DNA of 27,336 bases from a virus. Shown in pieces: positions 1,188-18,308 of this stretch. The notes under the pieces were generated by a model. It worked only from the letters and a program-made list of their open reading frames with translations. It did not search any database and was not told the DNA's origin. The DNA is taken from positions 1 to 27,336 of the IMG/VR virus record IMGVR_UViG_3300042402_002170. One strand, 5' to 3'. The position numbers and the translations under genes were made by a program. Numbering within the stretch: position 1 is the first letter of the stretch; each line of letters starts with the position of its first letter.

Positions 1188-1195
1188 TATTTATA
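1188..1195 (+). promoter_or_regulatory. TATTTATA element upstream of the envelope operon
   Basis: An exact TATTTATA lies in the 189-base gap between the divergent dioxygenase gene and the first gene of the plus-strand block, 82 bases before its ATG. The same word precedes genes at 9946, 11144, 23112 and 27178. If it acts like a -10 element, transcription would start near the 24-bp repeat at 1201. The rest of the gap (1089-1187) shows no clear element. Confidence 0.4.
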
Positions 1196-1200
1196 GTTAA

Positions 1201-1224
1201 GACAAAAAATAAATGTACCTCTCT
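1201..1224 (+). repeat. 24-bp direct repeat, left copy
   Basis: These 24 bases begin GACAAAAAATAAATG, end TACCTCTCT, and recur exactly at 14507-14530 in the same orientation. The copies bracket the whole plus-strand envelope block. A chance 24-base match within 27 kb is very unlikely. The copy contains an ATG opening a five-codon frame (MYLST). It may be a conserved transcript leader or a recombination boundary. Confidence 0.9.
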
Positions 1225-1242
1225 ACTTGATTTCCTCTCTTT

Positions 1243-1277
1243 AAAAAATCCTGTGGAGATATGTTAAAACAGGATTT
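1243..1277 (-). terminator. Stem-loop abutting the 1278 start; terminator-like on minus strand
   Basis: Bases 1246-1254 and 1269-1277 form a perfect 9-bp stem (AAATCCTGT / ACAGGATTT) with a 14-base loop. On the minus strand a run of six U follows, the form of a Rho-independent terminator that would stop antisense transcripts before the dioxygenase gene. On the plus strand the stem ends exactly one base before the ATG at 1278, and its loop contains GGAG and an out-of-frame ATG (1261), so it could also affect translation of the first gene. Confidence 0.55.
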
Positions 1278-1925
1278 ATGCAAAAAATTAGAGCAATTAG
1301 TGTTTCACTAAAAGAAAAATTCGCACTTGGGATAATGTACCTATTAGTAGGTTTAGTTATTAGTGCCGTATTATTTCAAATATCGATGGTGTATCTTGAA
1401 CTATCGGGAAATAAGGAGGCTGTGCGTTCAGTAGTCAATTGGTTTAATACCAAATTTGACGGTAGATATAAAAATGATCCGGCAAGTATTTGGTATACCG
1501 CTGAAGACCATATTTGGGTTGAAAGCGTAACCAATGAGGTTAAAATAGGTAAATTGGCGGGTAATAGAAACTTGGCTTTTGGTGTTAAAAATACATTAGA
1601 AGAGTTTTTACAAGAGAAGGATTATGAGTTAAGTCCTTCGGCACCGTACAAATTACATGTTCAAATCGTCTATTTAGATGTTCTTACCACAAAAAAGAAT
1701 GTATCCGTTTTTCATAAAAACGAAGAAGAAGTTGTGATAAGAATGAAAGGTATTCTTTACAAAGACGGTAAAAAAGAAAAAGAAATAATTGTGGAAGAGA
1801 GTTCTTCCGAGATATCCATGTCAACCTTGATCGTTGACGAAGGAGGTCAATTTAACCAAACGTCACTTAGTAACGCCCTAAAAAAATCGGCGGATAAATT
1901 AATAACTAAATTATTCAGTAAATAA
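1278..1925 (+). CDS. Membrane-anchored protein: N-terminal TM module fused to a CsgG-like C-terminal region
   Basis: 215 aa. A basic N-terminus leads into one hydrophobic segment (about 15-41), then the motif FDGRYKNDPASIWY, then a soluble alpha/beta region (about 85-215) ending in FNQTSLSNALKKSADKLITK. The TM plus KNDPxxIWY part matches the separate 71-aa ORF at 9946. The C-terminal part resembles the end of the CsgG-like protein at 10167 (FNQSTISIATKKALDVAVVN). The gene is therefore a fusion of two parts that are separate genes 9 kb downstream. It is first in the plus-strand block, followed after 2 bases by a secreted protein. CsgG-family proteins form outer-membrane secretion channels; a tethered fragment might be an accessory or periplasmic partner. 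The domain relation is read by eye; function is inferred. Confidence 0.7.
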   Translation: MQKIRAISVSLKEKFALGIMYLLVGLVISAVLFQISMVYLELSGNKEAVRSVVNWFNTKFDGRYKNDPASIWYTAEDHIWVESVTNEVKIGKLAGNRNLAFGVKNTLEEFLQEKDYELSPSAPYKLHVQIVYLDVLTTKKNVSVFHKNEEEVVIRMKGILYKDGKKEKEIIVEESSSEISMSTLIVDEGGQFNQTSLSNALKKSADKLITKLFSK

Positions 1926-1927
1926 GT

Positions 1928-3586
1928 ATGAAAAAAGTATTAACATTAATTGGGGTATTTTTATTGGTATCCCTTTCGTCATTTAGTCAATTAACGGTAA
2001 ACCAATCTGTAACCCCAACAACAGGATTAAAAGTTGGCGATACGATTTCGGTAAAGTATACCGTTGCTAAAGGTACAACAACACCTCGTTATTTTTGGTT
2101 AAGATACCAATTTAATAATAAAGCATTGGCATATGTGTCAACTACATTCTCACAAGGTACGTCGGTACAAACATATTTCACAAGTTGGACTGGTTTTAGA
2201 TTTACTGCGAGTACGGCAAATAATATAACCGCAACAAGTCTATATGCTCAATATTTGGCGTCTCCTTGGGCTTACGCAGCTAATGCCGATTGGAACGTTG
2301 GCCAATTAACTGTGCAAAGAACTGACGCTTCGATTGACGGTGATATTGCAACTCAAAAATACGTAATTAAAGATTTAGGAGTATATGACGACATTCATAA
2401 ATTGGATTTATCTTATTCAATAAACGCATCAAGTGCCAATATTTCACCAATAACAACCACAACGGGTTTGATGTCATTATCTAATGTTACAGGTAACACA
2501 TCTCAATTTAAAGTAAGAGTATTATTCCCGACTGGATATGATATCACCTCTCATAGTGTTTCATTATTACCAATAGGTTCTAATGGTGACGTTGACTGGA
2601 CAAGACAAGCAATTGCAACTAAAGTATTAGATGCAAGTGGTGAAGCAACATTTACAACCGAAGTTAAAGTTGGTGATAGCGTGGGTGTGTTCATCAATGC
2701 CGCATCTCAAAAAACGTTTATGAACAATATTGTTACGGTATCCGATGCGTATAGAGCATTTTTAGGTATATCACAAGTGGATATTTCAGGAAACCCAACA
2801 TTTTTTACTAGACCCGTTTTTGATAAAAAAATTGGTTTAATTACTAAAGGAAAAACAACATTTAGTGAAAGTGATTCATATAATTTATTTGCCCATATAA
2901 TGGGTGTGGATGTATCAAGTACCGCAACTATCCCATCAAACGCGGCACCTGTAAATCAAACCGTTAATTTTAAATGGTACAATGGTTTATTAAATCAAAG
3001 TTGGTTAGATGGAACATCAACGTATAAAGTAAAGGTAACGTCATCAAATCAAACGGTAAATTCTGTGTTTGCTTGGGGAGGGGATTTGGATTGGTCACAT
3101 TCGTCACATCCTGATACAATTGCAAGTAGAATTTCTTCGGGTGTTTCATCAAATTCAATTAACGATAATGTAACTATAAAAACAATGTCGGCAAGTTCAA
3201 TGTCATATACACCATCAATTGAAAATGCAAGATTGGGATTAACATCAACAATTGTTAATGGTAAAGTTGTGTTAACCGGAACGTTAACAAAAGAAGGATT
3301 GGCGGGTTTAGAAGTAATCTTACAATATGACAAAAATAAATTGACTTTTGATGATATTGCTTTTGATGCCGGACCAAGTGTAACTAACTTTTCAACAAAT
3401 GGCGATGGTAGATTAACATTTGGATCAATGGATCAAACTAGAACCGCAAGAATTAAGGTTGGTACGCCATATAAACTAACATTTATACCAAAAGAAACAA
3501 TTTCTAATACTGCCGGCTTATTCTACACAGTGTTAGCAGACGCGGTTGATGGAAACGGAAAGAAAATTAATTTGATAGTAGAATAA
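1928..3586 (+). CDS. Large secreted protein with dockerin-like and cohesin-like C-terminal regions
   Basis: 552 aa with a clear signal peptide (MKK, hydrophobic stretch, SSFSQ near 17-21), so exported. The rest is Thr/Ser/Asn-rich and predicted beta-rich. Three landmarks recur in the same order in the next gene: VTVSDAYRAF (269-278) followed by a SESDSYNLFAHIMG segment, which looks like the two helices of a dockerin-type unit; WGGDLDWSHS (383-392); and a final beta-sandwich (about 435-552) with LEVILQYDKNKLTF, as in cohesin-like domains. Here the Ca-binding loop is degenerate compared with the neighbour. It starts 2 bases after the preceding stop and ends 3 bases before the next start. Likely a cell-surface or virion-associated adhesin-like protein; no enzymatic motif was seen. 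Confidence 0.75.
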   Translation: MKKVLTLIGVFLLVSLSSFSQLTVNQSVTPTTGLKVGDTISVKYTVAKGTTTPRYFWLRYQFNNKALAYVSTTFSQGTSVQTYFTSWTGFRFTASTANNITATSLYAQYLASPWAYAANADWNVGQLTVQRTDASIDGDIATQKYVIKDLGVYDDIHKLDLSYSINASSANISPITTTTGLMSLSNVTGNTSQFKVRVLFPTGYDITSHSVSLLPIGSNGDVDWTRQAIATKVLDASGEATFTTEVKVGDSVGVFINAASQKTFMNNIVTVSDAYRAFLGISQVDISGNPTFFTRPVFDKKIGLITKGKTTFSESDSYNLFAHIMGVDVSSTATIPSNAAPVNQTVNFKWYNGLLNQSWLDGTSTYKVKVTSSNQTVNSVFAWGGDLDWSHSSHPDTIASRISSGVSSNSINDNVTIKTMSASSMSYTPSIENARLGLTSTIVNGKVVLTGTLTKEGLAGLEVILQYDKNKLTFDDIAFDAGPSVTNFSTNGDGRLTFGSMDQTRTARIKVGTPYKLTFIPKETISNTAGLFYTVLADAVDGNGKKINLIVE

Positions 3587-3589
3587 TTT

Positions 3590-6199
3590 ATGAAGAAACT
3601 ATTAGTAGTATTATTTTTATTTATTTCATTTTTAGGGTTTGGTCAGTCGGTTTCGGCACCAGACCCTAAGTCATTTATAGTAAATACTACAGGACAAGAT
3701 GCGAGTGGATTTGAATTGACTGGATTCAGTTCAACCGCAACTTTACTCGCTTCAATAAGTTTAGTTAACCCACCATCGGGTACAACATTCTATCTTAATA
3801 CAACAACAGGTCTAACCGCAGCAAGTGGTTTTACTTTAAGTGGCAATAAATCTCGTTTGGTTGTAACTGGAACAATGGTAAGTATTAATACTGCATTGGC
3901 GTCTCTAAAAATAAATACTGGAACTATAATTGGTGATATTAATATTTCGGTGGCTGCGACTGTTAATCAAGTAGGATATTTCTACAATGGTGTAAACGGA
4001 CACTTTTATAGACCAATATCAAATGGTACAACATACACCGGAGCAAGAGCCGCATCATTATTAACAACATTCAAAGGACAGACGGGATATTTGGTAACAA
4101 TAACATCAGCATCGGAAAATGCTTTTATATTTTCTAACGTACCACAATCTAACATATGGTTTGCCGCAACGGATGAAGTGAAGGACGGTACTTGGGTAAT
4201 TGATGCGGGGCCTGAAAAGGGGACGGTAATGAAAACCCAAAATGGACAAACTAATGGAAATATAGCAGGTGTATATAATAACTGGGCACAAGGTGAACCA
4301 AATGGTGTTAATGGTAGTGAAAACTATGCGGTAACAAACTGGAATGGACAACCAACATGGAATGATTTATCAAACAATTGGAGTAATCCATACATAATTG
4401 AGTACGGAACTTGGGCTAACCCAGATGACGCCACATTTACAGAATTTTATACCAATTCGGTAACTCATTCAAATGGAGAAACTATAAAAGCATTATTTGG
4501 ATTTAAGTTTAATACTTCAATAGATAAAACAAAATTTTTAGCACAGGTATTCAAAAGAAATGACACAAACTCAACTTGGTCAGCTGCGGATGGTTATAAA
4601 CCATTAAGTGGATTAGGTAAGGTATATCTTTCAAATCAAATAGACACAGCAAAAGTATTTGTATCTGGTATTCCTTTAAGTGGAGTAAGTGATATGCAAC
4701 AATTTAATCAATCTGATATTGGTAAAATATATAGAATGACTATAACAGGCGCAATTGGCGGAGCAATATGGGGAACCGATATCTATACTAGTGATACACA
4801 TATTCCAACTGCTGCTGTGCACGCTGGTGTTATAACGGTTGGTCAAACAAAAGAAGTTTATATTAAAGTAGTACAGGGATTAAGCGAATATGTCGGTACA
4901 ACTCGTAATGGTGTTACAACATCTGGATATGGTGGTTGGGATTTGAGTTATCAATTTGTATCCGCACCAACATCATATAAAGCAACAATATCTCCTGGTG
5001 GTGTTGAGTGGTCTTATACAAATCCAAATGCAAGTTGGTTAAACGGTAATAGTAGATTATTAATTGACATGAGACAAGTTGGAAGTATAGACCCAACTAA
5101 AATATCAAATGTAAAAATATTAGACGCGTATGATGGACCAGTTACATATACGTCGCATGATAATAATGGTTGGGCGATATACACGGTTCCATCTCCATTA
5201 ACAAAAATAACCGACGGAACTTCGGCGTTTAATCAATATATTAGAAATGTAAACGGTTGGAATACCGATTACGCATTTCAATGTGGTATTGGACTTACCC
5301 AACAAGGTGCGTTCAAACAACATAAAATGGAATTACAGGAATACAATTCAACTGAATTAAAAACTCTTTATAATAGTATTGTAACAGTATCAGATGTTTA
5401 TTTAGCGTTTAAGGAGGTTGCCAATAATGGTTTATTTGGTAATCAAAGTGGAAATGAATTTGTATACGGTATTCAATATAAAAATGCAGATGTTGACGAT
5501 AACGGCGTTTTTAATGAAGCTGATTGTTTTAAATTATTACAAAATTTAACTGGTGTTCAAGATTTAGTTAGTAGCTACACATTAGACAATACAATCAGAT
5601 TAATACCAGATTCAATTTACAATTTAATAGGTAAGTCTACTTGGAGTTCATTTCAAAATTTTGCTGGAAAGACATATAATTTTAGTTTATTAGATAATGT
5701 AATAAGTTATAATTACGATTTGGCTGTTAGTTGGAAAGGAGACGTGAACTTATCCCATTCAGCAACACCTCTATCAAATAATATTACAACGATGACAGTT
5801 AGAACATCAATGAGTACACCAATATCAACTGACATCAATGCATCTATTATGACCGAAGTAATCGGTGACAGTGTTTATGCTTATATCACATTTGATCCAT
5901 TACAACAAAATATTGTGGGAACGCAATTTCAATTAAATTATGACAATTCATTATTGAAGTTTAATAATGTAACTTTTAAAACAAAGGGGTCACCAACAAA
6001 CTACGCAAACGACAAAGGTTCATATATAAATTTAGGTTCTTTAGTTAGTGATGGAACAACGTCATTAGATAAAACAACAGAATATAAAATCTCATTTACG
6101 GCTAAGTCTAAATTAGAAAATATATTTGGGTTAATTTCAATTGGTGCAACTGACGCAGTAAACCAATCTGGAAAACAATTAAAAATAAAATTAAATTAA
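3590..6199 (+). CDS. Secreted C-type lectin-domain protein with dockerin-like and cohesin-like C-terminus
   Basis: 869 aa. A signal peptide (1-19, ending GFGQ) precedes a beta-rich domain (about 28-125). A C-type lectin-like domain follows (about 129-273): GYLVTITSASENAFI, then WFAATDE, NNWAQGEPN with E236-P237-N238, WND (257-259) and IIEYG. EPN plus WND is the classical Ca-dependent sugar-binding pair. Later come VTVSDVYLAF (598-607), an EF-hand/dockerin-type loop DVDDNGVFNEAD (634-645), WKGDVNLSHS (715-724) and a cohesin-like sandwich (about 747-869). The last three landmarks are shared with the preceding gene, so the pair is paralogous and this copy carries the lectin. The most likely role is glycan binding at the cell surface or on virions. 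The lectin call is strong; the biological target is unknown. Confidence 0.85.
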   Translation: MKKLLVVLFLFISFLGFGQSVSAPDPKSFIVNTTGQDASGFELTGFSSTATLLASISLVNPPSGTTFYLNTTTGLTAASGFTLSGNKSRLVVTGTMVSINTALASLKINTGTIIGDINISVAATVNQVGYFYNGVNGHFYRPISNGTTYTGARAASLLTTFKGQTGYLVTITSASENAFIFSNVPQSNIWFAATDEVKDGTWVIDAGPEKGTVMKTQNGQTNGNIAGVYNNWAQGEPNGVNGSENYAVTNWNGQPTWNDLSNNWSNPYIIEYGTWANPDDATFTEFYTNSVTHSNGETIKALFGFKFNTSIDKTKFLAQVFKRNDTNSTWSAADGYKPLSGLGKVYLSNQIDTAKVFVSGIPLSGVSDMQQFNQSDIGKIYRMTITGAIGGAIWGTDIYTSDTHIPTAAVHAGVITVGQTKEVYIKVVQGLSEYVGTTRNGVTTSGYGGWDLSYQFVSAPTSYKATISPGGVEWSYTNPNASWLNGNSRLLIDMRQVGSIDPTKISNVKILDAYDGPVTYTSHDNNGWAIYTVPSPLTKITDGTSAFNQYIRNVNGWNTDYAFQCGIGLTQQGAFKQHKMELQEYNSTELKTLYNSIVTVSDVYLAFKEVANNGLFGNQSGNEFVYGIQYKNADVDDNGVFNEADCFKLLQNLTGVQDLVSSYTLDNTIRLIPDSIYNLIGKSTWSSFQNFAGKTYNFSLLDNVISYNYDLAVSWKGDVNLSHSATPLSNNITTMTVRTSMSTPISTDINASIMTEVIGDSVYAYITFDPLQQNIVGTQFQLNYDNSLLKFNNVTFKTKGSPTNYANDKGSYINLGSLVSDGTTSLDKTTEYKISFTAKSKLENIFGLISIGATDAVNQSGKQLKIKLN

Positions 6200-6211
6200 A
6201 AAACAAAAATT

Positions 6212-6931
6212 ATGGCAGACAGAAACGGAGACGGAGTTGTTTATCATCGCTCAGATTGTGGTGATAACTATGTAAGATGGTATGGGTTCGGTGGAGATGG
6301 TCCTTGTTCATCATGTGATACATGGGGACTTACCAATAAAGCAATAAGATATATTCACGACCATCCTGAAATAAATCATAGACTTGAAGATGTGGTAGGT
6401 AGAGAGTGGGATGAAGAAGTTATGCCGGTACTTATTAATGTCGGAAATCAAATAGAGTCTGGTGTTAAAGAAGGCTATGAAGTAGTAAAAGATGGTGCTG
6501 TGATGGCATATAATTGGGTGGACGAAAACGCATGTAATATAGCAATAACCGCAGCAATCTCTGCCGGTGTTGTTGCAGCATTTACCCCGGCCCAACCAGC
6601 TGGTGCTGCAACGTCAACGACGTTATCGTTTATGGCAACACCTATCCTATATGTTGCAGATATGGCAGCTAAAGTTGCTGTTGTAACTGCAATGAGTGTA
6701 ATTGTAACAGAGGCATTTTTACAAATACCAGGTGTTAGTGATAGTGTTGACCACGAAATATTAAAAAATGTGATTTCAAATTGTTTAGCTAAAAGTTTAG
6801 ATTCGGCACATTTATGGGCAACACCGGCTGGAGTTGGTATTGCAATTGGTGCGGCGGTTGCACCTATTATTGCTGATTTAATATGTAAAAGGACTTGTCC
6901 TGAAGGATTTACTAAAGCGTTTGGTGCATAA
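6212..6931 (+). CDS. Hypothetical protein with Cys-rich N-terminus and long hydrophobic helices
   Basis: 239 aa, not assigned to a family. The N-terminus is polar and Cys/Gly/Trp-rich (C16, and C32-x2-C35 in GGDGPCSSCDTW). An amphipathic region (45-105) precedes long Ala/Val/Ile-rich stretches at about 109-133, 138-168 and 203-223, broken by polar turns. A second Cys pair (C225, C229) sits near the end. There is no signal peptide. Such hydrophobic helical hairpins occur in membrane-inserting or pore-forming proteins, and also in DNA-injection or holin-like proteins. It lies between the lectin gene and an outer-membrane protein whose ATG overlaps its stop (TAATG), so the two are translationally coupled. 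Confidence 0.6.
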   Translation: MADRNGDGVVYHRSDCGDNYVRWYGFGGDGPCSSCDTWGLTNKAIRYIHDHPEINHRLEDVVGREWDEEVMPVLINVGNQIESGVKEGYEVVKDGAVMAYNWVDENACNIAITAAISAGVVAAFTPAQPAGAATSTTLSFMATPILYVADMAAKVAVVTAMSVIVTEAFLQIPGVSDSVDHEILKNVISNCLAKSLDSAHLWATPAGVGIAIGAAVAPIIADLICKRTCPEGFTKAFGA

Positions 6932-7824
6932 TGAAAAAACTAATAACCATATTATCCTTACTTTGTATTGGATTTGTTTCGAAAGCACAAATACAAAAAC
7001 CCGATACGTTACAACTATCACCGAAAGAATTATTTGGGGAAAGTGATGATTGGAATGATGTTGGTATATTACAATCCTATGTTAATTTCTCAAAAGATGT
7101 TCTCTCATCATCAAACCTTTCAGTTGGTGTAATTGGGAGACAAGTATCTACCACGCTCAATTTAGGATACCATAAATCGTCTATGAATGGTCAATGGGGA
7201 CATACATTCGCGGCATCAATAAATCCTATATGGAACTATTATGGTGTGGGTTATGGTCTTAGTAGAAACACAGAAAAAAGAACAACTACGATCCAAACAT
7301 TTTACTCAACTGATTTTGATTTTCAAAAAGATATTACACTATCGTTTATAGATGTGTTTAGAACAAAAAAATATGGGACATTTGGTTATAGTTTAACCGC
7401 ATCAAAATCATTTTGGGGAACTTATCAAGGTGAATGGGAAGGAAAATATACTGTGGATGAAAACGGTGATTTTAAAGATTTAATATATCCACAAATGCCA
7501 ACATCATCCGAACTTACTTATAGAGGTATGGTGATGTACACATATACATTGAAAACAAAGAGAGTAAACGTATCACCACAAATATTTGCAATGAGTGATG
7601 TCTACAAAGTATTCAAAGATGGTACTGAATCGGATTTAGGATATGTAGATGATTTCAATTTGGACTTATATTATGGTACATCTATTGATTGGAAAATAAC
7701 TAAAAGATTTGTGTTGAATGCTAATATTAGATATAACACAACTTGGGATAAATTAAGTGAATCAGTTGGTTATAAAAAGACTAACCCAATAATGTTTATG
7801 ATAGGAACAAACTTTCAATTTTAA
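6931..7824 (+). CDS. Outer-membrane beta-barrel-like protein
   Basis: 297 aa with a signal peptide ending SKAQ (about 16-19). The mature part is rich in alternating aromatic/polar strands and ends in F (TNFQF), the usual C-terminal signature of outer-membrane barrels recognised by the BAM machinery. It shares segments with the C-terminal domain of the 518-aa protein at 12918: KYGTFGYSL, NVSPQIFAM and SIDWKITKRF match KGTFGYNV, TISPQVFTM and SFDYKLSKRF. The two are therefore paralogues. Its start overlaps the previous stop by one base; the next gene follows after 3 bases. A phage-coded barrel could change host permeability or receptor exposure, but that is inference. Confidence 0.72.
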   Translation: MKKLITILSLLCIGFVSKAQIQKPDTLQLSPKELFGESDDWNDVGILQSYVNFSKDVLSSSNLSVGVIGRQVSTTLNLGYHKSSMNGQWGHTFAASINPIWNYYGVGYGLSRNTEKRTTTIQTFYSTDFDFQKDITLSFIDVFRTKKYGTFGYSLTASKSFWGTYQGEWEGKYTVDENGDFKDLIYPQMPTSSELTYRGMVMYTYTLKTKRVNVSPQIFAMSDVYKVFKDGTESDLGYVDDFNLDLYYGTSIDWKITKRFVLNANIRYNTTWDKLSESVGYKKTNPIMFMIGTNFQF

Positions 7825-7827
7825 GAT

Positions 7828-8181
7828 ATGAAATGCATTAAAATTATATTATTGTTTTGTTTTGTTTTCATGTTATCATGTAGAAAAACAATACCTATTG
7901 TAACCGAACAACCGATAAATGTGGAATTTTTCTCTTTATCTGAAAATAAAGTAAAAAATGGCGATGTTATTAACATTAACATAAAAACGGGAGGAGTGTA
8001 CACTTTGACAATGATTGACACAGTACAAAATCAAATTATATCAAGAGAAAGATTTACCGGTAAAGTAGGTTTAAACTCTCTTAAAATATTTACTAATACC
8101 TTGCCGACAAAATACCTAAGTGTCGTATTAAAGGATCAAAACAATAACGAAATAGGTAAAACAAGAATAATTATAAATTAA
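7828..8181 (+). CDS. Lipoprotein with a beta-sandwich resembling a T9SS sorting domain
   Basis: 117 aa. A short signal peptide with lipobox LSC (Cys18) is followed by RK, so the mature protein should be lipid-anchored in the envelope. The rest is one small beta-rich domain: VYTLTMIDTVQNQIISRERF, then GLNSLKIFTNTLPTKYLSVVLKDQNN. The pattern (turn, G-x-N, strand, LP, strand) resembles the type A C-terminal sorting domain of Bacteroidota type IX secretion. The next gene has the same layout, so they are paralogues. It is co-transcribed with the barrel gene upstream. Confidence 0.65.
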   Translation: MKCIKIILLFCFVFMLSCRKTIPIVTEQPINVEFFSLSENKVKNGDVININIKTGGVYTLTMIDTVQNQIISRERFTGKVGLNSLKIFTNTLPTKYLSVVLKDQNNNEIGKTRIIIN

Positions 8182-8193
8182 AAAAGACAAAAC

Positions 8194-8562
8194 ATGAAAA
8201 AAGTATCTCTCGTACTCTTTGGTTTAATCTTGCTTGCTGGGTGTAGAAAAGTTGACGTTCCTTTTCAGCCGCAAGTGATTAGCGACAACCTTAAAATCTC
8301 AAGTTCAGTGGGATTGAAATTAGAAACAGCATTCGTTACAACCGAAGTTGCTATGAACATTAAAAGTGATGTTGCTCAGAAGGTAACTGTCAAAATATTT
8401 GACATATCTAACAGGGTAGTATCAAAATCCACAAATGATGTGAAAGTGGGTGATAACATATTAAGAGTATATACCTCAGCATTACCAAGTTCAGCATATA
8501 GGATTGCTCTTTATGATGCTGCAGATAATATGTTGGCGATCACTGATTTTAATAAAATTTAA
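8194..8562 (+). CDS. Lipoprotein with T9SS-type-A-like domain (paralogue of upstream gene)
   Basis: 122 aa. Signal peptide with lipobox LAGC (Cys17), again followed by RK. The domain VTVKIFDISNRVVSKST, then GDNILRVYTSALPSSAYRIALYD, is close to the type A sorting-domain pattern (iydi-GrvV, G-xN, LpsG-Y). Here it follows an N-terminal lipid anchor rather than a large cargo, which is unusual. A normal sorting domain is removed at the outer membrane, so this more likely reuses the fold as a stand-alone envelope protein, possibly competing for or binding secretion components. Spacing to the upstream gene is 12 bases. Confidence 0.68.
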   Translation: MKKVSLVLFGLILLAGCRKVDVPFQPQVISDNLKISSSVGLKLETAFVTTEVAMNIKSDVAQKVTVKIFDISNRVVSKSTNDVKVGDNILRVYTSALPSSAYRIALYDAADNMLAITDFNKI

Positions 8563-8591
8563 GATAATTATAGTATATAAAACACAAAATT

Positions 8592-8906
8592 ATGGCAGAA
8601 GAACAACAAGAACAATCAACTGGTGGTTCAATTAAGAACATCATTATCGGTTTAGTAAGCACTATCACATTAGGTGTGGGTGGTTGGTTTACAACAAAAT
8701 TAACAGGTGGTGACGAAAAGGAGGCTCCTGCGGCCGCGGCTCCTGTAATTAACATTACAAACTCTAATCAACAACAACAAGCTGCGGGTAAAACTGTAAT
8801 CATCAAACAAGGCGGCGGAGCGGCGCAACCAGCTGCACCAGCACCAAAACCAAAAGAAAAGAAAAAAGATGGTGATGAGTTTAAAGAAGAAGCACCAAAA
8901 TGGTAG
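8592..8906 (+). CDS. Small single-pass membrane protein with Ala/Pro/Lys-rich tail
   Basis: 104 aa. One hydrophobic segment at about 13-33 (SIKNIIIGLVSTITLGVGGW) without a cleavage site, then low-complexity sequence rich in Ala, Gln, Pro and Lys with a short hydrophobic stretch (VINITNSN), ending EAPKW. No family recognised. A single TM and charged, extended tail suit an inner-membrane protein with a periplasmic or cytosolic tether, such as a holin-like or spanin-like component. Its stop overlaps the next mini-gene (ATGGTAG), suggesting coupling. Confidence 0.6.
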   Translation: MAEEQQEQSTGGSIKNIIIGLVSTITLGVGGWFTTKLTGGDEKEAPAAAAPVINITNSNQQQQAAGKTVIIKQGGGAAQPAAPAPKPKEKKKDGDEFKEEAPKW

Positions 8907-9013
8907 TATCTGTAACAGGATACCAAATTGGGACACTAATCTTTACGATTATAATAATTGGGATGGCAATTAAAACATCTCTAGAATTGACAAAAAAAGA
9001 AAAAAATGGCTGA
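8900..9013 (+). CDS. 37-aa single-pass membrane peptide
   Basis: A short frame starts at ATG 8900, overlapping the previous stop, and ends at TGA 9011-9013, overlapping the next start (9006). The peptide begins MVVSVTGYQIGT, has a strongly hydrophobic core (LIFTIIIIGMAI) and a Lys-rich tail (LTKKEKNG). A single TM helix with a positive tail, overlaps on both sides, and a setting among membrane proteins support it as real; length argues for caution. Confidence 0.45.
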   Translation: MVVSVTGYQIGTLIFTIIIIGMAIKTSLELTKKEKNG

Positions 9014-9611
9014 TCAACAACCACCAAGTGGATTTAAAGAATTATTAAGTAGTATGATGAAACGTAGATGGTTCATCACTGCTATCGTATTAGGAGGATT
9101 TATGATAATCATAATGGGAATATTTGGAGCAATTCTAAATAAATCCGCAATTGAGGGTGAATGGAAAGAACTTTTACTTTTATTATTAGGAGCCTTTATT
9201 GGTAGTTATGGTAAAATCATTGATTATTGGTTTAGTGATACTGATAAGGATAAGATGTTAGTTCAAAAAATGGATGAAGAAGACGGTGTATCGTTGAGTA
9301 ATACTAATGATGGGCCAAATAATCCAATTGTACCAATGTCAATAGCACCATTAGTGTTATCTGAATCAACTGAACAAGTAACCGAACAAGTAGTTGAAAC
9401 ACCAAAAGCAAAAGTTGGCGTTGAAATTGATGAAGATGGTGATGGTGTAATGGATGGTTTGGATTTTGACGGTGACGGTAAAATTGACGAATATTTCACA
9501 CACAGACAATGTGAACACGTTTGGGGTGACTTAGACGGAGACGGAACTGAAGAATGTTTGAAGTGTGGTAAAGTTAAGGATGAATACGCAGAAATGCATA
9601 TGGAAGGATAA
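9006..9611 (+). CDS. Holin-like membrane protein with calcium loops inside a zinc-ribbon-like tail
   Basis: 201 aa. Two hydrophobic segments (about 23-45 and 55-68), then GSYGKIIDYWFSDTDKDKML, a signature resembling small phage membrane proteins of holin type. An acidic linker (90-140) leads to three D-x-D-G-D-G loops at 142-150, 153-161 and 175-183. Cys169, His171 and Cys184-x2-Cys187 look like a zinc ribbon, and the third calcium loop sits between its halves. The tail would sense or bind metal on one side of the inner membrane. A role in lysis timing is inferred from topology only; no endolysin gene is seen nearby. Confidence 0.62.
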   Translation: MADQQPPSGFKELLSSMMKRRWFITAIVLGGFMIIIMGIFGAILNKSAIEGEWKELLLLLLGAFIGSYGKIIDYWFSDTDKDKMLVQKMDEEDGVSLSNTNDGPNNPIVPMSIAPLVLSESTEQVTEQVVETPKAKVGVEIDEDGDGVMDGLDFDGDGKIDEYFTHRQCEHVWGDLDGDGTEECLKCGKVKDEYAEMHMEG

Positions 9612-9640
9612 TAATAAACAAAAGACAAAAAATAAAAACT

Positions 9641-9889
9641 ATGAATTTTAAACAATGGGTAATTGAACTCTTCAAAGATGAAAGAGGTTCAATATCGGTA
9701 AAACCGGTAATCGCAATGATAGGTGCGTTATTCCTATGCATAACAATGATATTAAATTCGTTCTCTCACGCGGATTTTGCACCATCTCCTGAACTAGTTA
9801 ACGCAGTAATGTTAATTACAGGTATTGGTATGGGTGCGGATACATTAGATAAGTTTTCACATAAAAAGAAAGACGAATCGGAAGGTTAA
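9641..9889 (+). CDS. Small two-TM phage membrane protein (holin-like)
   Basis: 82 aa. An amphipathic N-terminus (MNFKQWVIELFKDERGS) is followed by two hydrophobic segments (about 22-42 and 52-68) joined by a short polar loop (SHADFAPSPE) and a basic tail (FSHKKKDESEG). Two TMs in under 90 aa with a charged C-terminus is a typical class II holin topology, but that topology is not specific. It is the last gene of the first transcription unit: a strong terminator follows within 5 bases. Confidence 0.6.
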   Translation: MNFKQWVIELFKDERGSISVKPVIAMIGALFLCITMILNSFSHADFAPSPELVNAVMLITGIGMGADTLDKFSHKKKDESEG

Positions 9890-9892
9890 TAT

Positions 9893-9918
9893 AAAGGGAG
9901 TTAAACACTCCCTTTTTT
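9893..9918 (+). terminator. Rho-independent terminator
   Basis: Perfect 9-bp stem AAAGGGAGT (9893-9901) / ACTCCCTTT (9907-9915) with a 5-base loop, ending in six T. It closes the 1278-9889 unit. Confidence 0.9.
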
Positions 9919-9933
9919 GTTTAAAATAGTTTA

Positions 9934-9941
9934 TATTTATA
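9934..9941 (+). promoter_or_regulatory. TATTTATA element before the 9946 gene
   Basis: The word lies 16 bases after a terminator and 4 bases before the ATG at 9946. If it is a -10-like element, the transcript would be nearly leaderless. Confidence 0.4.
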
Positions 9942-9945
9942 TAAT

Positions 9946-10161
9946 ATGATACTATTATTTAAAATAAAAGAGAGCACATTTTACATGTTTTTACAATTAT
10001 GTCTTGTGTGGGTTACGTTTGCTATTTGTTTTCAAATTTTTATGATTACAACAGAATACATAAACCCAGCATTAACAAAAAAAATAGGAAATTACCTCAC
10101 ATGGAAACTCGATGGGGCGTTTAAAAATGACCCTGATAATATATGGTATGAAAAAAAATAA
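9946..10161 (+). CDS. 71-aa membrane peptide with KNDPxxIWY motif
   Basis: One TM segment (about 14-36), then a stretch ending WKLDGAFKNDPDNIWYEKK. It matches the N-terminal 75 residues of the 215-aa protein at 1278 (TM plus FDGRYKNDPASIWY). Alignment extends upstream of Met14, which supports the first ATG over an internal one. It is followed after 5 bases by the CsgG-like gene. Because the same two modules are fused at 1278, the peptide probably works with that protein at the membrane. No known family was recognised. Confidence 0.62.
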   Translation: MILLFKIKESTFYMFLQLCLVWVTFAICFQIFMITTEYINPALTKKIGNYLTWKLDGAFKNDPDNIWYEKK

Positions 10162-10166
10162 ATTAT

Positions 10167-10886
10167 ATGAAAAAATTATTAACATTATTAATCGTTTGTT
10201 TGGTAAGTCTTGTTGCAAATAGTCAAACAATTGGTAAAACTAAGACAGAGGACTTCAAGGCGGACTTTGAAAAGAAAAAAGATATAAGTGCTTACTTGGA
10301 CTACGATGGTCCTCAAATACCCGTTCAAATCCTTAAATGTGGTATTTCAGATGAAATATATGAAATGTACCCTGAATTAAAAGAAAAACGTGTTGGTTTA
10401 GGTGTTGCAAACATCTCAATGGAATACCTTGAAAACTTAAACAGGTTTAAATTTACCGAGGACAAAACGGAAATAAAGAATAGGATGGTTAAACAGTTTC
10501 AAGCGTCTGCGGCAGGTATTTCCGAAAATAAATTAGACGGTCGTGGTAAAATCAATTTAGCAAAGTATTTTGTGACAATTGAGTGTTATGATTATTCAAT
10601 ATCTGAAGATGAAACTATCAATTTAAAAGATGGAATTAAAGATAATATGGTAACGCGTATTGGTTTACAAGTAAGATTTACAGATGCAGAAACGGGTGTA
10701 ATATTTGGTGGATCTGGTTTAGGTGAAGCTAAAACAACAAGAGAACTTACTTTATTATCTGACGCAACCATAGATCCAATTAAATTCAATCAATCAACAA
10801 TCTCAATTGCAACTAAAAAAGCGTTAGATGTTGCAGTTGTTAACATTCTTGATAGAATGATTAAAAAAGGAATTTTCACAAAATAA
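10167..10886 (+). CDS. CsgG-like secreted/outer-membrane protein
   Basis: 239 aa with a signal peptide ending VANSQ (about 16-20). The mature part has the order of the curli-channel CsgG fold: LGVANISMEYLENLNRFKF (locating a target helix and strand), AKYFVTIECYDYSIS, then VTRIGLQVRFTDAETGVIFGG, and a final helix STISIATKKALDVAVVNILDRM. CsgG proteins form nonameric outer-membrane secretion pores for amyloid subunits. No lipobox was seen, unlike Escherichia coli CsgG, so membrane insertion is uncertain. Co-transcribed with the TM peptide upstream; its stop overlaps the FeoA-like start (TAATG). Match is by eye at family level. Confidence 0.6.
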   Translation: MKKLLTLLIVCLVSLVANSQTIGKTKTEDFKADFEKKKDISAYLDYDGPQIPVQILKCGISDEIYEMYPELKEKRVGLGVANISMEYLENLNRFKFTEDKTEIKNRMVKQFQASAAGISENKLDGRGKINLAKYFVTIECYDYSISEDETINLKDGIKDNMVTRIGLQVRFTDAETGVIFGGSGLGEAKTTRELTLLSDATIDPIKFNQSTISIATKKALDVAVVNILDRMIKKGIFTK

Positions 10887-11119
10887 TGAAATATGAAATT
10901 TTAGACGTACCTCAGCCTGAAAATTGTGAAAGGTGTGTCCCATGTCTTAGGATTAGATTAATGGAAATGGGATTAATTACAGGTGAAAAAGTTGAAATTG
11001 AGGACAAAAGATTAGGTCTTTGGATTGTCAATATTCTCTCAGATAATGAAGATACATCATCAAGAGTTGCCCTCAGGCAAGAAGAATTAGATAGAATATG
11101 TTTAAAAGGGGTTTTATAA
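10886..11119 (+). CDS. FeoA-like (SH3-fold) small protein with CxxCxxC motif
   Basis: 77 aa. The segment LRIRLMEMGLITGEKVEIE, followed by VALRQEELDRICL, fits the FeoA domain (RL-x-EMGL-x-x-G, then a final 'iALr-xx-A-x-x-I' strand). FeoA assists the ferrous-iron transporter FeoB in host cells, and the fold also occurs in DtxR-type regulators. Unusual here is Cys14-x2-Cys17-x2-Cys20 just before the domain, which could bind metal or a cluster. The gene overlaps the CsgG-like stop and its own stop lies inside the following terminator. No FeoB is present, so a role on the host Feo system is a guess. Confidence 0.72.
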   Translation: MKYEILDVPQPENCERCVPCLRIRLMEMGLITGEKVEIEDKRLGLWIVNILSDNEDTSSRVALRQEELDRICLKGVL

Positions 11120-11129
11120 CCCCTTTTTT
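11104..11129 (+). terminator. Rho-independent terminator
   Basis: Perfect 10-bp stem AAAAGGGGTT (11104-11113) / AACCCCTTTT (11118-11127) with a 4-base loop and a T run to 11129. It includes the stop codon of the FeoA-like gene and closes the second transcription unit. Confidence 0.9.
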
Positions 11130-11131
11130 AA

Positions 11132-11139
11132 TATTTATA
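11132..11139 (+). promoter_or_regulatory. TATTTATA element before the PspC-like gene
   Basis: Directly after the terminator and 4 bases before the ATG at 11144, the same order as at 9934 and 27165. Confidence 0.4.
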
Positions 11140-11143
11140 TTAT

Positions 11144-11323
11144 ATGAAAAAGTTTAAAAGAATCCACGACGATAAAGTTTTCTTTGGTGTGTGTGGTGGT
11201 TTAGGTCACCGCACAAATATAGATCCGTTAGTTTGGAGAATGTTATTTTTCTTTTTAATATTTTCACCAGTCCCAATAATAACCGGTTATTTATTAACCA
11301 CAATTTTAACTGAAACAACATGA
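11144..11323 (+). CDS. PspC-domain membrane protein (59 aa)
   Basis: MKKFKRIHDDKVFFGVCGGLGHRTNID... is a compact PspC domain: a basic start, the diagnostic GVCGGL (15-20), NIDPLVWRMLF (25-35), then a hydrophobic segment (33-55). PspC is an inner-membrane sensor of the phage-shock response that relays envelope stress in bacteria. Here only the core domain is present. It starts the third plus-strand unit after a terminator and TATTTATA element, and its stop overlaps the start of the next gene (ATGA). A phage copy might mimic or blunt host envelope-stress signalling caused by the exported proteins nearby; that link is inferred. Confidence 0.82.
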   Translation: MKKFKRIHDDKVFFGVCGGLGHRTNIDPLVWRMLFFFLIFSPVPIITGYLLTTILTETT

Positions 11324-12174
11324 AAAAAGTTTTATTAATTGTTGGATTAACATTAGTGTTAACCTTAATCTGTACCATTATGCTTTATTCCCAAGTTAGT
11401 AATTGGAGAAGCAACCCACCTACGCCTCAAAGGTCCACACCATCAACACAACCATCGGCTCCACAAAGAAACGATGTTAGTAATTGGAGAAGTCAACCGC
11501 CATCAAGAGGGTATGATAGACCCATAAGAACAAGACCTGGTTCAAACATAATCGTTAGAGACCCGTGGTTAATGAATAATTTTGGATGGGGATGGAATAG
11601 ATGGGATATGTGGGGAGCACCTGCATTTGGTTGGAACTTTTGGAATCCTGGCTTTTACTTAAACGATTGGGGTTATAGACAACCTGCGAGAGTTTATGTG
11701 TACGATAATGGTAAGAGAGATACTATCAAAGGTAAGAAACCTGTTATCAGTTTTGGTATTCAAAAAACAGGTGGTAATCAAATTGGCGGATTTGTTACTA
11801 TGGGAAACAAAGCATATTTTATAGCTGAATACAATTCAACATTTGAAAGAGACAATTCAACATTCTTTCCTTATGGTAATATAACACAAGTTGATTTTCC
11901 AATGGTAAATGATTTGATAGAGCAAAGAAGTTTCTATGTTGGTATTGGTAAGAGAATTAAAAGAACAGGTATCCACATGATGATTGGTAGTGTGACAGAA
12001 GATGTAAAGTGGAGAGGTAAGGATGATATTGGATATATTACTTTCCCAAAATATAAAGATAGATTCACAACTGTTAAAGTTGGAGCGTTACATGATTTCA
12101 AAAATCTAACAATAAAGTATGATTATGACCCGATAATCCGTAATAGCACTTTTGGTTTAGGTATTAATTTTTAA
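11320..12174 (+). CDS. Secreted Trp-rich protein with barrel-like C-terminus
   Basis: 284 aa. A long hydrophobic signal or anchor (about 3-24) is followed by two copies of VSNWRSxPP (about 26-34 and 53-61) in a Pro/Ser/Gln-rich linker. Next is an extraordinary Trp/Gly/Asn stretch (about 88-119) containing FGWGWNRWDMWGAP and FGWNFWNPGFY. The C-terminal half (about 145-284) is beta-rich and ends GLGINF, an outer-membrane-type final aromatic residue. No family was recognised. The WRS repeats may be a binding or anchoring motif. Its ATG overlaps the PspC-like stop, so the two may be translationally coupled. Confidence 0.68.
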   Translation: MKKVLLIVGLTLVLTLICTIMLYSQVSNWRSNPPTPQRSTPSTQPSAPQRNDVSNWRSQPPSRGYDRPIRTRPGSNIIVRDPWLMNNFGWGWNRWDMWGAPAFGWNFWNPGFYLNDWGYRQPARVYVYDNGKRDTIKGKKPVISFGIQKTGGNQIGGFVTMGNKAYFIAEYNSTFERDNSTFFPYGNITQVDFPMVNDLIEQRSFYVGIGKRIKRTGIHMMIGSVTEDVKWRGKDDIGYITFPKYKDRFTTVKVGALHDFKNLTIKYDYDPIIRNSTFGLGINF

Positions 12175-12178
12175 AATA

Positions 12179-12913
12179 ATGAATTTAAATTTCAAATATA
12201 AAATATGTGAATTAAAGGATTATTTATCCGAATATGAAATGAATTTATTATCGGATAAAATAAAAACTTTTGACGTTGATTTATCCGAAATAAAAAGTAA
12301 TTTGGGGTTTTTAAATTGGTCTAAAGACGTACAAGAAAAAATTAAATATCACGATAACATCAGGTATGAGAATATTGTGTTAAAACAATATATTACATAT
12401 GATGATTTTCAATTTTTAAGTCACATAAATGAACAATATAATTTTTCAACACATGACTATTTTAATTTCTTTTTAACATATAGTAGTGAGACATATAAAA
12501 AAAGAGGCATATATGAACATATTAAAAATGCATATTCTAACATATTAATAGAATTATTTGGTAAAAAAATTAAATTAGAATATGAATCTACCTTAGCTGG
12601 GAATATAAACATATATCCTAAAAATTCATTTATTAAAAAACATCAAGACAACGATCCTGACGGACAACGTTTATTTACGATCTTGTTTTTTTTAAATGAT
12701 GATAGAGTAGAGAGTCAGGGATCTTTATTGAAAATTTTTGATGGAGAAGAGGTGATAACGGTAGTTCCTAATTATAAACATTGTATTATTTTAGAACATC
12801 AAAATCATAATCTTATTCACGAAGTTACTTTAAACTTAGTCGATGATGTAAGATATTCAATTTATTCCCCATTTACAATAAAAGATTATTATCAAAAATT
12901 AGAAGATTTATAA
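12179..12913 (+). CDS. 2OG-Fe(II) oxygenase, prolyl-hydroxylase-like
   Basis: 244 aa. The C-terminal half has the full double-stranded beta-helix signature: H155-Q156-D157 (KKHQDND), LFFLND, a GSLLKIF strand, and the distal H214 with R225 (HEV ... VRYSIYSPF). These supply the iron triad and the 2-oxoglutarate contact. Unlike the PhyH protein at 309, this triad is intact. Such enzymes hydroxylate proline, lysine or asparagine in proteins, or glycans and nucleic acids. It lies between two exported proteins and lacks a signal peptide, so it probably acts in the cytosol, perhaps on a neighbour before export. No substrate evidence. Confidence 0.82.
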   Translation: MNLNFKYKICELKDYLSEYEMNLLSDKIKTFDVDLSEIKSNLGFLNWSKDVQEKIKYHDNIRYENIVLKQYITYDDFQFLSHINEQYNFSTHDYFNFFLTYSSETYKKRGIYEHIKNAYSNILIELFGKKIKLEYESTLAGNINIYPKNSFIKKHQDNDPDGQRLFTILFFLNDDRVESQGSLLKIFDGEEVITVVPNYKHCIILEHQNHNLIHEVTLNLVDDVRYSIYSPFTIKDYYQKLEDL

Positions 12914-12917
12914 ACTA

Positions 12918-14474
12918 ATGAAAAAAATAATAATCTCTCTTGCTATATTTTTAATTTTTAGTGTTAAATCTTTTTCTCAAAGCACTATAACACAAACTTA
13001 TGTTGATCCGTGTGACAATAAGGTTTATGTAGTTACAATTCCATTTGGTCAGGGTAGTACGGTTGCTGTTATTAGAGGTAAATCTAAAATTGTGACATTA
13101 TCCGAAATTAATAGCGGCGCATTTCAATTATGGGTCAATTCTATATTTTCTGAACCTTGTCCTCAAAATGAAACAATAAGATTAGCGCAAGAAGCTGCTG
13201 CAAGAGCCGCCGCCGAAGCCGCCGCAAAAGCTGCTGCTGATGCTGCTGCCGCCGCTGCCGCCAAAGCGGCTTCAGATGCTGCTGCTGCTAGTGCTTCAGC
13301 CGCTGCAAGTAGTAGTGCAAGTTCTGCTGCAAGTTCTGCCGCATCTTCCGCTGCAAGTTCGGCCGCAAGTAGTTCAGCATCTTCAGCTGCAAGTAGTAGT
13401 GCAAGTTCTGCCGCCGCCAGTTCCGCAGCTACCACACCTCCACCTGTAAGTTCTCCTCCACCTGCGAGTAGTTCATCTTCGCCACCACCGGCAAGTAGTT
13501 CATCATCTAGCGGTTCATCATCTAGTGGTTCGTCGTCAAGTGGTTCATCTTCATCAAGTAGTTCATCATCAGAAAGTAAAAGTAGCGGTTCTAGTGAAAC
13601 AAAATCTGAAACAAAATCTGAAACAAAATCTGAAACAAAATCTGAATCTAAAACAGAAGAGAAAAAGACAGAATCTAAAACGGAAGAAAAGAAAGAAGAA
13701 AGTAAAACTGAGGAAAAGAAAGAAGAGAGCAAATCAGAAGAAAAAAAATCTGATGAAAAGAAGGAGGAAAAAAAAGAGGAAAAGAAAAAAGAAGAAAAGA
13801 AAAAACAATTAGAAGTAACAAATCCATTACTATTATCTTCAGATTTAACAACTATGCAAACTATTGATAATAGATATTTAGTCTCAATATCTTTAGGTGT
13901 AAGTAAATCTTCAATGGCTGGCGATGAAAGTTATAGTGGTGGTTTAATGCTTAATAGTGATTTAAGTCAAATTGTTTTGACCGGCGGTTATACAAAAATG
14001 GAAATGACAAAAGACGGTCAGTTAAATGCTATACATTCTTATGGTACTGCATTTGCATATTTATCGGGGAATTATATGAATTTATTAGGTTATACTTGGA
14101 TTAAACCAACACCTAAAAAAGGAACATTTGGATATAATGTCGGTGTAATTAATTTATTTCTTAAAAATGAAAATGGAGGCTTTGATTATAATATGGCATC
14201 TTCAGCAATTGGATTTTGGACTAAACCATATGTATATTCAAAAAAACTTACAATATCACCCCAAGTATTTACAATGTTTGCTCCAATATCTTGGAACAGT
14301 GTAAATGGATCATCAACGGTTAATAGACATATGGGATTCTTATTGGGTTCTTCCTTTGATTATAAATTAAGTAAAAGATTTGGATTTAGTTTTAATTATA
14401 AATTGAGTGGTAATACAAAACCAGGTTCTCCATTCTTAAATAATTTCTTGATAGGTAGTAGAATGGTGTTATAA
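12918..14474 (+). CDS. Exported protein: Ala/Ser/Pro/Glu-Lys low-complexity region plus barrel-like domain
   Basis: 518 aa. Signal peptide (1-20, ending SFSQ), a short globular part with a Cys pair (about 21-85), then about 210 residues of low complexity. This runs Ala-rich (probably helical), Ser/Ala, Pro/Ser and Gly/Ser, then Ser-Glu-Lys-Thr and finally Lys/Glu-rich sequence. A beta-rich C-terminal domain (about 300-518) is a paralogue of the protein at 6931, sharing GTFGYNV, SPQVFTM and DYKLSKRF. The low-complexity part would be a long spacer between the surface and the barrel, or a cell-wall-spanning rod. It is last in the block; a minus-strand terminator and the second 24-bp repeat follow. 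Confidence 0.72.
   Translation: MKKIIISLAIFLIFSVKSFSQSTITQTYVDPCDNKVYVVTIPFGQGSTVAVIRGKSKIVTLSEINSGAFQLWVNSIFSEPCPQNETIRLAQEAAARAAAEAAAKAAADAAAAAAAKAASDAAAASASAAASSSASSAASSAASSAASSAASSSASSAASSSASSAAASSAATTPPPVSSPPPASSSSSPPPASSSSSSGSSSSGSSSSGSSSSSSSSSESKSSGSSETKSETKSETKSETKSESKTEEKKTESKTEEKKEESKTEEKKEESKSEEKKSDEKKEEKKEEKKKEEKKKQLEVTNPLLLSSDLTTMQTIDNRYLVSISLGVSKSSMAGDESYSGGLMLNSDLSQIVLTGGYTKMEMTKDGQLNAIHSYGTAFAYLSGNYMNLLGYTWIKPTPKKGTFGYNVGVINLFLKNENGGFDYNMASSAIGFWTKPYVYSKKLTISPQVFTMFAPISWNSVNGSSTVNRHMGFLLGSSFDYKLSKRFGFSFNYKLSGNTKPGSPFLNNFLIGSRMVL
13596..13643 (+). repeat. Four exact 12-bp tandem repeats inside the 12918 gene
   Basis: GAAACAAAATCT occurs four times without interruption, encoding (Glu-Thr-Lys-Ser)x4 at about residues 227-242. 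Exact nucleotide identity suggests recent slippage expansion in the low-complexity spacer. Confidence 0.9.
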
Positions 14475-14504
14475 AAAAGTCCCCAGAGTAGAAACCCTGA
14501 GGAC
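14473..14504 (-). terminator. Rho-independent terminator (minus strand)
   Basis: Bases 14479-14489 and 14494-14504 pair in minus-strand RNA with two G-U wobbles that are C/A mismatches on the plus strand, followed by six U (plus A run 14473-14478). It ends the minus-strand operon coming from 17997 and overlaps the stop codon of the plus-strand gene at 14474. Confidence 0.75.
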
Positions 14505-14506
14505 GT

Positions 14507-14530
14507 GACAAAAAATAAATGTACCTCTCT
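14507..14530 (+). repeat. 24-bp direct repeat, right copy
   Basis: Exact copy of 1201-1224 in the same orientation, 33 bases after the last gene of the envelope block. Unlike the left copy it has no TATTTATA before it. The surrounding gap (14475-14561) otherwise holds only the terminator. Confidence 0.9.
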
Positions 14531-14561
14531 CCTGATACTTTATAATTCTATTATAATATTT

Positions 14562-14897
14562 TTAAAAAGTCAAGTCTTTATGAAGATTAACCACCTTACT
14601 ACAAGTTTCGTAATCTTCAGTTTCTTCAAAATAAGGTAAAATATCTCTTTTTAATACAATAGTTTCGCTACGATGAAACTCAAACTCGGTATTCCAATCC
14701 GCATCTTTAAATTTGGCAGACATCTTTAATATTAATGATCTTTTTTTAGTATTTTTAAACTCTTCAAAAATCTCGATTATTGATTTGTATATCTCTTCTT
14801 TATTTGGTTCATAAAAGCTTTTCCAGTCTTTGTATATTCCATTGATTATCAATTCTTTAAACGGTTTTTTGTTTCTTTTTTGTGGGTTAGTTTGCAT
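14562..14897 (-). CDS. Hypothetical protein (111 aa)
   Basis: A charged, soluble, mixed alpha/beta protein rich in Lys, Glu and aromatics (KELIINGIYKDWKSFYEPN near 14-32, DWNTEFEFHRSET near 67-79). No signal peptide, TM or motif was recognised. It is the last gene of the minus-strand operon, 65 bases after the receiver-domain gene and just before the terminator at 14504. A functional link to RNA repair rests only on operon position. Confidence 0.6.
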   Translation of the reverse strand: MQTNPQKRNKKPFKELIINGIYKDWKSFYEPNKEEIYKSIIEIFEEFKNTKKRSLILKMSAKFKDADWNTEFEFHRSETIVLKRDILPYFEETEDYETCSKVVNLHKDLTF

Positions 14898-18051: not shown

Positions 18052-18264
18052 TTATTTGATTTCTTCAACTGTGCCGTGTGAACCGTCTTTACCGCTTTCA
18101 TCCACAACACCTCCGCCAGCAGTGCCGCCTTCAACTGGAACTGATGTTGAATCCACTAAAGGAGCAGCTGTTGAGTCAGTTGATTGAGTTGTGGTTGACT
18201 CTGAACCACATGCTGTTAATGCTAACATAGCACCAAAAGCTAAAATAAATGTTACTTTTTTCAT
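18052..18264 (-). CDS. Small Bacteroidota-type lipoprotein (70 aa)
   Basis: Chosen start MKKVTFILAF (ATG at 18264), because an upstream in-frame Met (18282) would add MLYLLY before a perfect signal peptide. The lipobox is LTAC (Cys19), followed by GSESTTT. The mature part is Ser/Thr/Gly/Val/Asp-rich, low complexity (QSTDSTAAPLVDSTSVPVE), with no fold recognised. It resembles small Bacteroidota lipoproteins and would decorate the outer membrane. It is flanked by terminators, so it is monocistronic. Confidence 0.75.
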   Translation of the reverse strand: MKKVTFILAFGAMLALTACGSESTTTQSTDSTAAPLVDSTSVPVEGGTAGGGVVDESGKDGSHGTVEEIK

Positions 18265-18308
18265 ATAAAGTAAATATAACAAAATTTAATTAGAAAACCA
18301 AATCCAAT

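Follow-up and report, generated by a model that had tools for sequence, protein, structure and literature searches.

A short RNA encoded by the phage itself probably controls a 13-kb block of envelope genes in an uncultured phage, by pairing with the 5′ end of the block mRNA. An exact 24-bp direct repeat is found at both ends of this block. The left copy is predicted to form the start of the block mRNA, whereas the right copy, read on the minus strand, looks like part of a predicted RNA of 65–70 nt that is complementary to the block leader. This antisense RNA would regulate the block, and probably repress it. The antisense pairing is well supported by comparison of related genomes; that the RNA is made, acts in trans and represses, and when it would do so, is what we infer.

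According to the proposed mechanism, the predicted antisense RNA of about 65–70 nt would arise from the 3′ UTR of a minus-strand operon ending in the gene g18, and its target would be the 24 nt with which the block mRNA begins when transcribed from a TATTTATA promoter. Base pairing, beginning at nucleotide +1, would cover the A-rich 5′ leader together with a CU-rich motif. Translation of the envelope block would be regulated by this masking, with repression or delay the most likely effect. Shine–Dalgarno pairing is not used by Flavobacterium ribosomes, and initiation is tuned by mRNA structure and A-rich upstream sequence (PMC6847099). With the A-rich 5′ end or a leaderless start codon masked, initiation should therefore fall, and repression or delay, the likeliest outcome, can be expected with some confidence if the antisense reading is right. 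More broadly, a conserved trans-acting antisense RNA lodged in the 3′ UTR of one operon may set the expression or timing of a whole convergent operon in large Bacteroidota phages, an operon encoding a CsgG-fold protein, barrels, a lectin, lipoproteins and holin-like proteins, by means of a lineage-private, co-evolved code; we regard this wider view as evenly poised.

The repeat pair and the envelope gene block

The window, that is the whole stretch of DNA analysed, is a complete viral record of 27,336 bases and is itself a fragment, and for this reason the wider genome was studied through relatives. Its relevant features are:

1188–1195, plus strand: TATTTATA, predicted phage (late-type) promoter of the block; an octamer enriched in the related contig G017 and found at every left copy
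1201–1224, plus strand: left repeat copy GACAAAAAATAAATGTACCTCTCT, exact 24-mer; predicted first 24 nt of the block mRNA and antisense target
1246–1277, plus strand: leader hairpin AAAUCCUGU-loop-ACAGGAUUU followed by AUG; abuts the start codon
1278–14474, plus strand: envelope gene block of 17 genes for signal-peptide, lipoprotein and membrane proteins; kept as a block in relatives
14473–14540, minus strand: predicted antisense RNA element, with stem-loop 1 (GUAUC-AGGAGAGA-GGUAC), a U-rich antisense stretch and a terminator hairpin with U6
14507–14530, plus strand: right repeat copy GACAAAAAATAAATGTACCTCTCT, exact 24-mer; serves as template for the antisense stretch and is conserved next to the g18 stop in relatives
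14562–14897, minus strand: g18, encoding a 111-aa protein; its 3′ UTR holds the antisense element, and 48 family loci were found

Both copies of the repeat lie on the plus strand, and the match can be extended to 1227 and 14533 with 26 of 27 bases identical. No further site for its 18-base core was found in the window at up to three mismatches, and two core sites occurred in none of 100 dinucleotide shuffles of the window (mean 0.04), far beyond chance. An earlier note on this DNA had described these repeats and their offsets, and the offsets agree with our own measurement: 77 bases separate the start of the left copy from the ATG at 1278, and the right copy lies 33 bases past the stop ending at 14474. 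The observation was thus real, but the TATTTATA promoter at the left end and the minus-strand terminator at the right end had been overlooked.

The gene arrangement given by the earlier note also holds, since all 17 genes of 1278–14474 are on the plus strand and the flanking genes at 309–1088 (left) and 14562–14897 (right) are on the minus strand. The block is indeed rich in exported or membrane products: signal peptides, lipoboxes and membrane segments were judged by eye from the translations, and 8 proteins have a signal peptide or lipobox and 6 more have membrane segments. The lectin, FeoA and PspC genes that had been proposed could be named by domain (LCCL and C-type lectin domains in gene 3590, a FeoA domain in gene 10886, a PspC domain in gene 11144), and the CsgG-like gene 10167 by predicted fold. 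The modelled product of the latter (10167–10886; model pLDDT 66) has a CsgG fold (Foldseek E 5e-6), and that of gene 1278 (1278–1925; pLDDT 73) has a membrane helix followed by an LptE/CsgG-like fold (E about 1e-6 to 1e-5); a sequence search of solved structures (PDB) returned no match for either gene. Judging from these models, the two proteins may possibly form a phage-made outer-membrane export pore. Gene 12918 (12918–14474) encodes a barrel protein with low-complexity repeats, Ala/Ser-rich and then Lys/Glu-rich, at 13269–13810; about 220 of its residues align with relatives and are presumably the barrel end. Some small membrane proteins of the block read as holin-like, and no name was obtained for the small membrane proteins from PHROGs or Pfam. 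Gene 12179 retrieved two relatives only when used as a search query, and genes 9006 and 14562 had no match in the annotated phage collection. A role of the block in envelope remodelling or lysis timing is plausible.

Several other genes were noted in passing. Two 2-oxoglutarate/phytanoyl-CoA dioxygenase-like proteins are encoded, one just left of the block (309–1088) and one inside it (12179–12913). The block of G017 includes a class 3 lipase (L152:12227–12970; Pfam Lipase_3, E 3e-28), which the window block lacks. Tandem small KTSC-domain genes (21721–21972 and 22046–22291) are kept in relatives, and a partial tRNA gene (Rfam tRNA, 31.3 bits) is cut by the contig end at 1–63 on the minus strand.

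Conservation of the pair in related phages

Relatives were gathered with the first block gene as query, giving 73 loci, and with a g18 alignment as query, giving 48 loci. The related phage contigs reach 335 kb, and among annotated phages that have part of the block the closest is Flavobacterium phage vB_FspM_immuto, which suggests Bacteroidota hosts. Contigs that include both ends have both copies in the same orientation, 9.8–17.3 kb apart; repeats and block belong together, as had been suggested. Sixteen other viral contigs contain the exact 24-mer, 15 as the right copy in the interval between the last block gene and g18 and one as the left copy, while the 335-kb contig G017 holds two good copies and no more. 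Dispersed copies at unrelated sites, or a block conserved apart from the repeats, were the outcomes that the earlier note had set against its reading; neither occurred, the 24-mer not being dispersed and the block being conserved together with the repeats.

The antisense element directly follows the stop codon at most of the 48 g18 loci, and is absent in two sub-groups (L206–L211 with L213, and L216–L224). Foreign genes lie between the block and the right copy in G020 and its relative G047, where the right copy remains with g18 and the terminator. G034 and G048 have a reduced or different block, whose first leader weakly resembles the right copy. Twelve block contigs were searched for g18, which was missing from ten, a weak absence as the contigs are fragments; likewise, none of the leaders readable in these ten fragments has the TATTTATA-plus-motif arrangement, an absence of equally little weight.

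The left copy as predicted mRNA 5′ end

Upstream of tandem genes in G017, no sense octamer is more enriched than TATTTATA (27 sense vs 2 antisense), and the ATG most often lies 11–14 nt after its first T (L162–L178), giving near-leaderless mRNAs. This dominant sense promoter motif of G017 is the reverse complement of the T4 late promoter TATAAATA. The ATG of the block, 95 nt downstream, is an exception to this spacing. It is the left copy that begins 13 nt after the first T of TATTTATA in the window, and the sequence common to both copies begins 11–13 nt after the first T of TATTTAT in 12 of 12 genomes. Because this distance from the promoter matches the ATG spacing of the leaderless genes of G017, the mRNA is predicted to begin at the left copy. 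The first gene reads as leaderless in G010 and G044, where the complementarity covers the start codon and first codons.

A start-proximal stem of 7–10 pairs is found in 14 leaders of differing sequence, with a mean score of 19.5 vs 4.6 in shuffles (0/60), and in about half of the leaders a hairpin loop exposes the CU-rich motif. Two other candidate features were rejected. An upstream ORF in the repeat (ATGTACCTCTCTACTTGA) loses its ATG (ACG, AAG or ATA) in about half of the lineages. A leader pseudoknot between the 5′ motif and the start-proximal hairpin loop is attractive in single leaders, but permuting the loops gave p about 0.5 for the loop alone and 0.015 with the arm included, and it is not claimed.

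The right copy as predicted antisense element

Along the g18 strand, the stop codon is followed by stem-loop 1, with a GA-rich loop, and the U-rich antisense stretch, then after 0–4 nt by a terminator stem and U-tract. This terminator, with a stem of 11–15 bp, lies 0–4 nt past the right copy in 27 of the 28 g18 3′ UTRs parsed; the remaining element (L187) was mis-parsed by the script, and its layout fits by eye. The element of the window folds with a z-score of −4.8, and the energy of stem-loop 1 was bettered in none of 150 shuffles. After composition correction stem-loop 1 has z −8.4 vs −7.4 on the other strand, so that its strand asymmetry, considered as a proof of strand, vanishes. Strand assignment rests on the terminator U-tract, because stem-loop 1 is nearly as unusual on the opposite strand. 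As in small RNAs derived from 3′ UTRs, the element is placed between the g18 stop and the terminator; no clear promoter of its own was recognised by eye, and a 3′-UTR origin is assumed. Rfam gave no match above the gathering score at 1201–1280 or 14470–14560.

Elsewhere in the window, a conserved unit on the minus strand (18283–18420), upstream of gene 18052–18282, has its own TATTTATA promoter and an intrinsic terminator. About 100 nt are strongly conserved (GGTTCTCTTTGTCGATTACC ... GTGGGGTTGAACCCAC ... AAACCCCGACATCTCGTTGGGGTTTTTT), similar units occur at 7 related loci, and Rfam has no match for it. This unit has the appearance of another small RNA gene of the phage.

Co-variation of the two copies

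The duplex predicted between the antisense RNA and the block leader of the window has an energy of about −41 kcal/mol, and the block leader is the strongest non-self target of this RNA in the window (−41.7 vs −27.5 kcal/mol). Likewise, in the 335 kb of G017 no site other than the antisense locus itself pairs better than the block leader (−37.9 kcal/mol vs −29.2 for the next). The stretch shared by the two copies differs between lineages, being GACAAAAAATAAATGTACCTCTCT in the window, GACAAAAAACAATAAATG.A.CTCTCGAT in G021, GGCAAGAA.AAACTAAATGTATCTCTA in G020 and GGACAAAATAAATAAATGTAT in G023, and the left copy of each genome fits its own right copy best. The energy of the cognate duplexes was reached by none of 200,000 permutations of 12 genomes, by 1 of 200,000 with 9 genomes (leaving out G005 and those with a reduced block), and with p about 5e-5 for 8 genomes, in a test that is not tree-aware and treats related genomes as exchangeable, although close relatives share copies by descent. 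Co-variation persists when the first 9 or 12 bases are dropped and also when the first 16 are taken on their own, and is seen in the A-rich and CU parts separately. Imperfect cognate pairs are found in G010, G042 and G044, and the reduced-block pairs of G034 and G048 are weak, at about −15 kcal/mol.

A prediction could be made from the leader of phage G029, which has AAAAG where its relatives have AAATG. The g18 3′ UTR of this phage, fetched after the prediction, has CTTTT vs CATTT in relatives and provides a 25-nt perfect complement followed by a terminator; at sequence level, this matching change confirms what the leader had predicted. Co-variation would also result from gene conversion between the copies; that this happens often is made less likely by the differences between left and right copies in most genomes. 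Extended complementarity with co-variation is thus found here, as is, by prediction, a small terminated stem-loop RNA, both features of phage antisense RNAs.

The first part of the repeat (GACAAAAA) also resembles ordinary A-rich gene starts in these phages. The start region of the internal gene 9641 (GACAAAAAATAAAAACTATG; 9620–9640, plus strand) is identical to the repeat in its first 13 nt; it could be a second, weaker antisense target, or the A-rich part could be a generic start context.

Alternative explanations

Pairing might have the opposite effect, the antisense RNA activating or stabilising the block mRNA through 5′-end protection or remodelling of the leader hairpin. This variant of the best explanation, with which it is compatible, seems rather unlikely to us. 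It is true that 5′ duplexes can stabilise mRNAs and that pairing could affect the conserved hairpin abutting the start codon, but pairing over a leaderless start codon, as in G010 and G044, should block initiation, and the leader pseudoknot that would favour remodelling is unsupported by permutation (p about 0.5 for the loop alone).

Alternatively, both copies could be sites, in DNA (an operator) or RNA, for a single phage regulatory protein, the left one overlapping the transcription start of the block; the chance of this is slight. Co-varying copies would be expected here too, the left copy is at +1, where repressors bind, and the right copy contains the inverted repeat GTATC-N8-GGTAC. However, what the copies of one genome have in common is the loop and the A-rich stretches; the inverted-repeat arms that enclose the CU motif are not shared (window, G010, G044 and G021): the arms are AAAAGGA/TCCTTTT in the left copy of G010 and GGAAGG/CCCTTC (left) and GTAYC/GATAC (right) in G044, and the left copy of the window has no second arm. 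The A-rich stretch co-varies as well (e.g. AATAAAT, CAATAAAT, CTAAAT, AATAAAAG), there are only two good sites in 335 kb, and a protein site gives no reason for the g18-strand terminator found 0–4 nt downstream in 27 of 28 cases. Since the arms differ, the whole shared stretch co-varies and the right copy is tied to a terminator, base pairing fits better than a fixed protein site. A protein may assist the RNA pairing, or there may be another kind of site.

Direct repeats at both ends of a block with variable gene content had led the earlier note to suggest a past insertion, or a route to loss of the block by recombination. Target duplication or direct-repeat excision of such a cassette is very improbable, since no empty site, solo copy or 24-mer outside the block context was seen among the 16 contigs with the exact 24-mer, and the pair is retained in divergent genomes at distances of 9.8–17.3 kb. 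The copies co-vary instead of diverging independently, and each has distinct conserved flanks (promoter and leader hairpin on the left, antisense stem and terminator on the right). Moreover, the right copy follows g18 and not the block end in G020 and G047. The PHROGs and Pfam matches of the window proteins searched include no integrase or transposase, and a mobile cassette or site-specific recombination unit, with neither empty or dispersed copies nor a recombinase gene found, was rejected as unlikely. Finally, that both copies are promoter elements of one class, with an antisense transcript over g18 starting from the right copy, hardly deserves credence: the left copy adjoins a promoter, but TATTTATA lies upstream of and outside it and is absent at the right copy, and the repeat motif was not found at other transcription units of the 335-kb genome.

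Significance and comparison with known systems

Antisense regulation of the block by the RNA of the g18 3′ UTR, the reading preferred here, would make of an odd direct repeat a regulator whose action on an envelope operon can be tested. The best-known phage antisense RNAs belong to a small number of temperate phages; the one proposed here is predicted from sequence alone in large freshwater phages that are uncultured, and is backed by co-evolution in about eight lineages and by one confirmed prediction. The separation of target and antisense loci provides a natural series of matching and non-matching RNA pairs, and repeats shared between predicted mRNA 5′ ends and terminator-adjacent 3′ UTRs offer a route to others.

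Plasmid copy-control antisense RNAs (CopA/CopT, RNAI/RNAII, ColIb-P9 Inc RNA) similarly involve complementary hairpins with matching loops that co-vary between relatives. These RNAs are encoded exactly opposite their targets, whereas target and antisense are here two separate loci that must co-evolve. Bacterial small RNAs derived from 3′ UTRs likewise come from an mRNA 3′ end and use its terminator; they usually act with Hfq or ProQ through short seeds, in contrast to the 20–25 contiguous paired bases of the best pairs here. The open-access literature yielded no description of an antisense RNA located in a convergent operon 3′ UTR and directed at the 5′ end of a 13-kb operon, nor of any antisense RNA in this phage group.

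Among phage RNAs, PAK_P4as15 of Pseudomonas phage PAK_P4 is an endolysin-associated antisense RNA with a suggested role in lysis delay, absent in the relative PAK_P3 (PMC12197685). It too is tied to an envelope-affecting gene, but was described in one phage, and no conserved pair of separate target and antisense loci was described there. Known phage antisense RNAs also include lambda OOP (on cII), P22 sar (on ant), P1/P7 c4 (on ant) and lambda aQ (PMC12197685). Like the RNA predicted here, they are short, phage-encoded and complementary to a phage mRNA, and c4 also presents its complementary sequence in loops. Unlike it, they control lysogeny, immunity or late-activator genes of temperate phages. 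The RNA proposed here comes from a large Bacteroidota phage, where its locus is separated by 13 kb from the target and forms part of the 3′ UTR of a convergent operon; an entire envelope operon would be under its control, with complementarity beginning at mRNA +1. The kind of regulator is therefore a known one (OOP, sar, c4), whereas the architecture and the phage group appear to be new.
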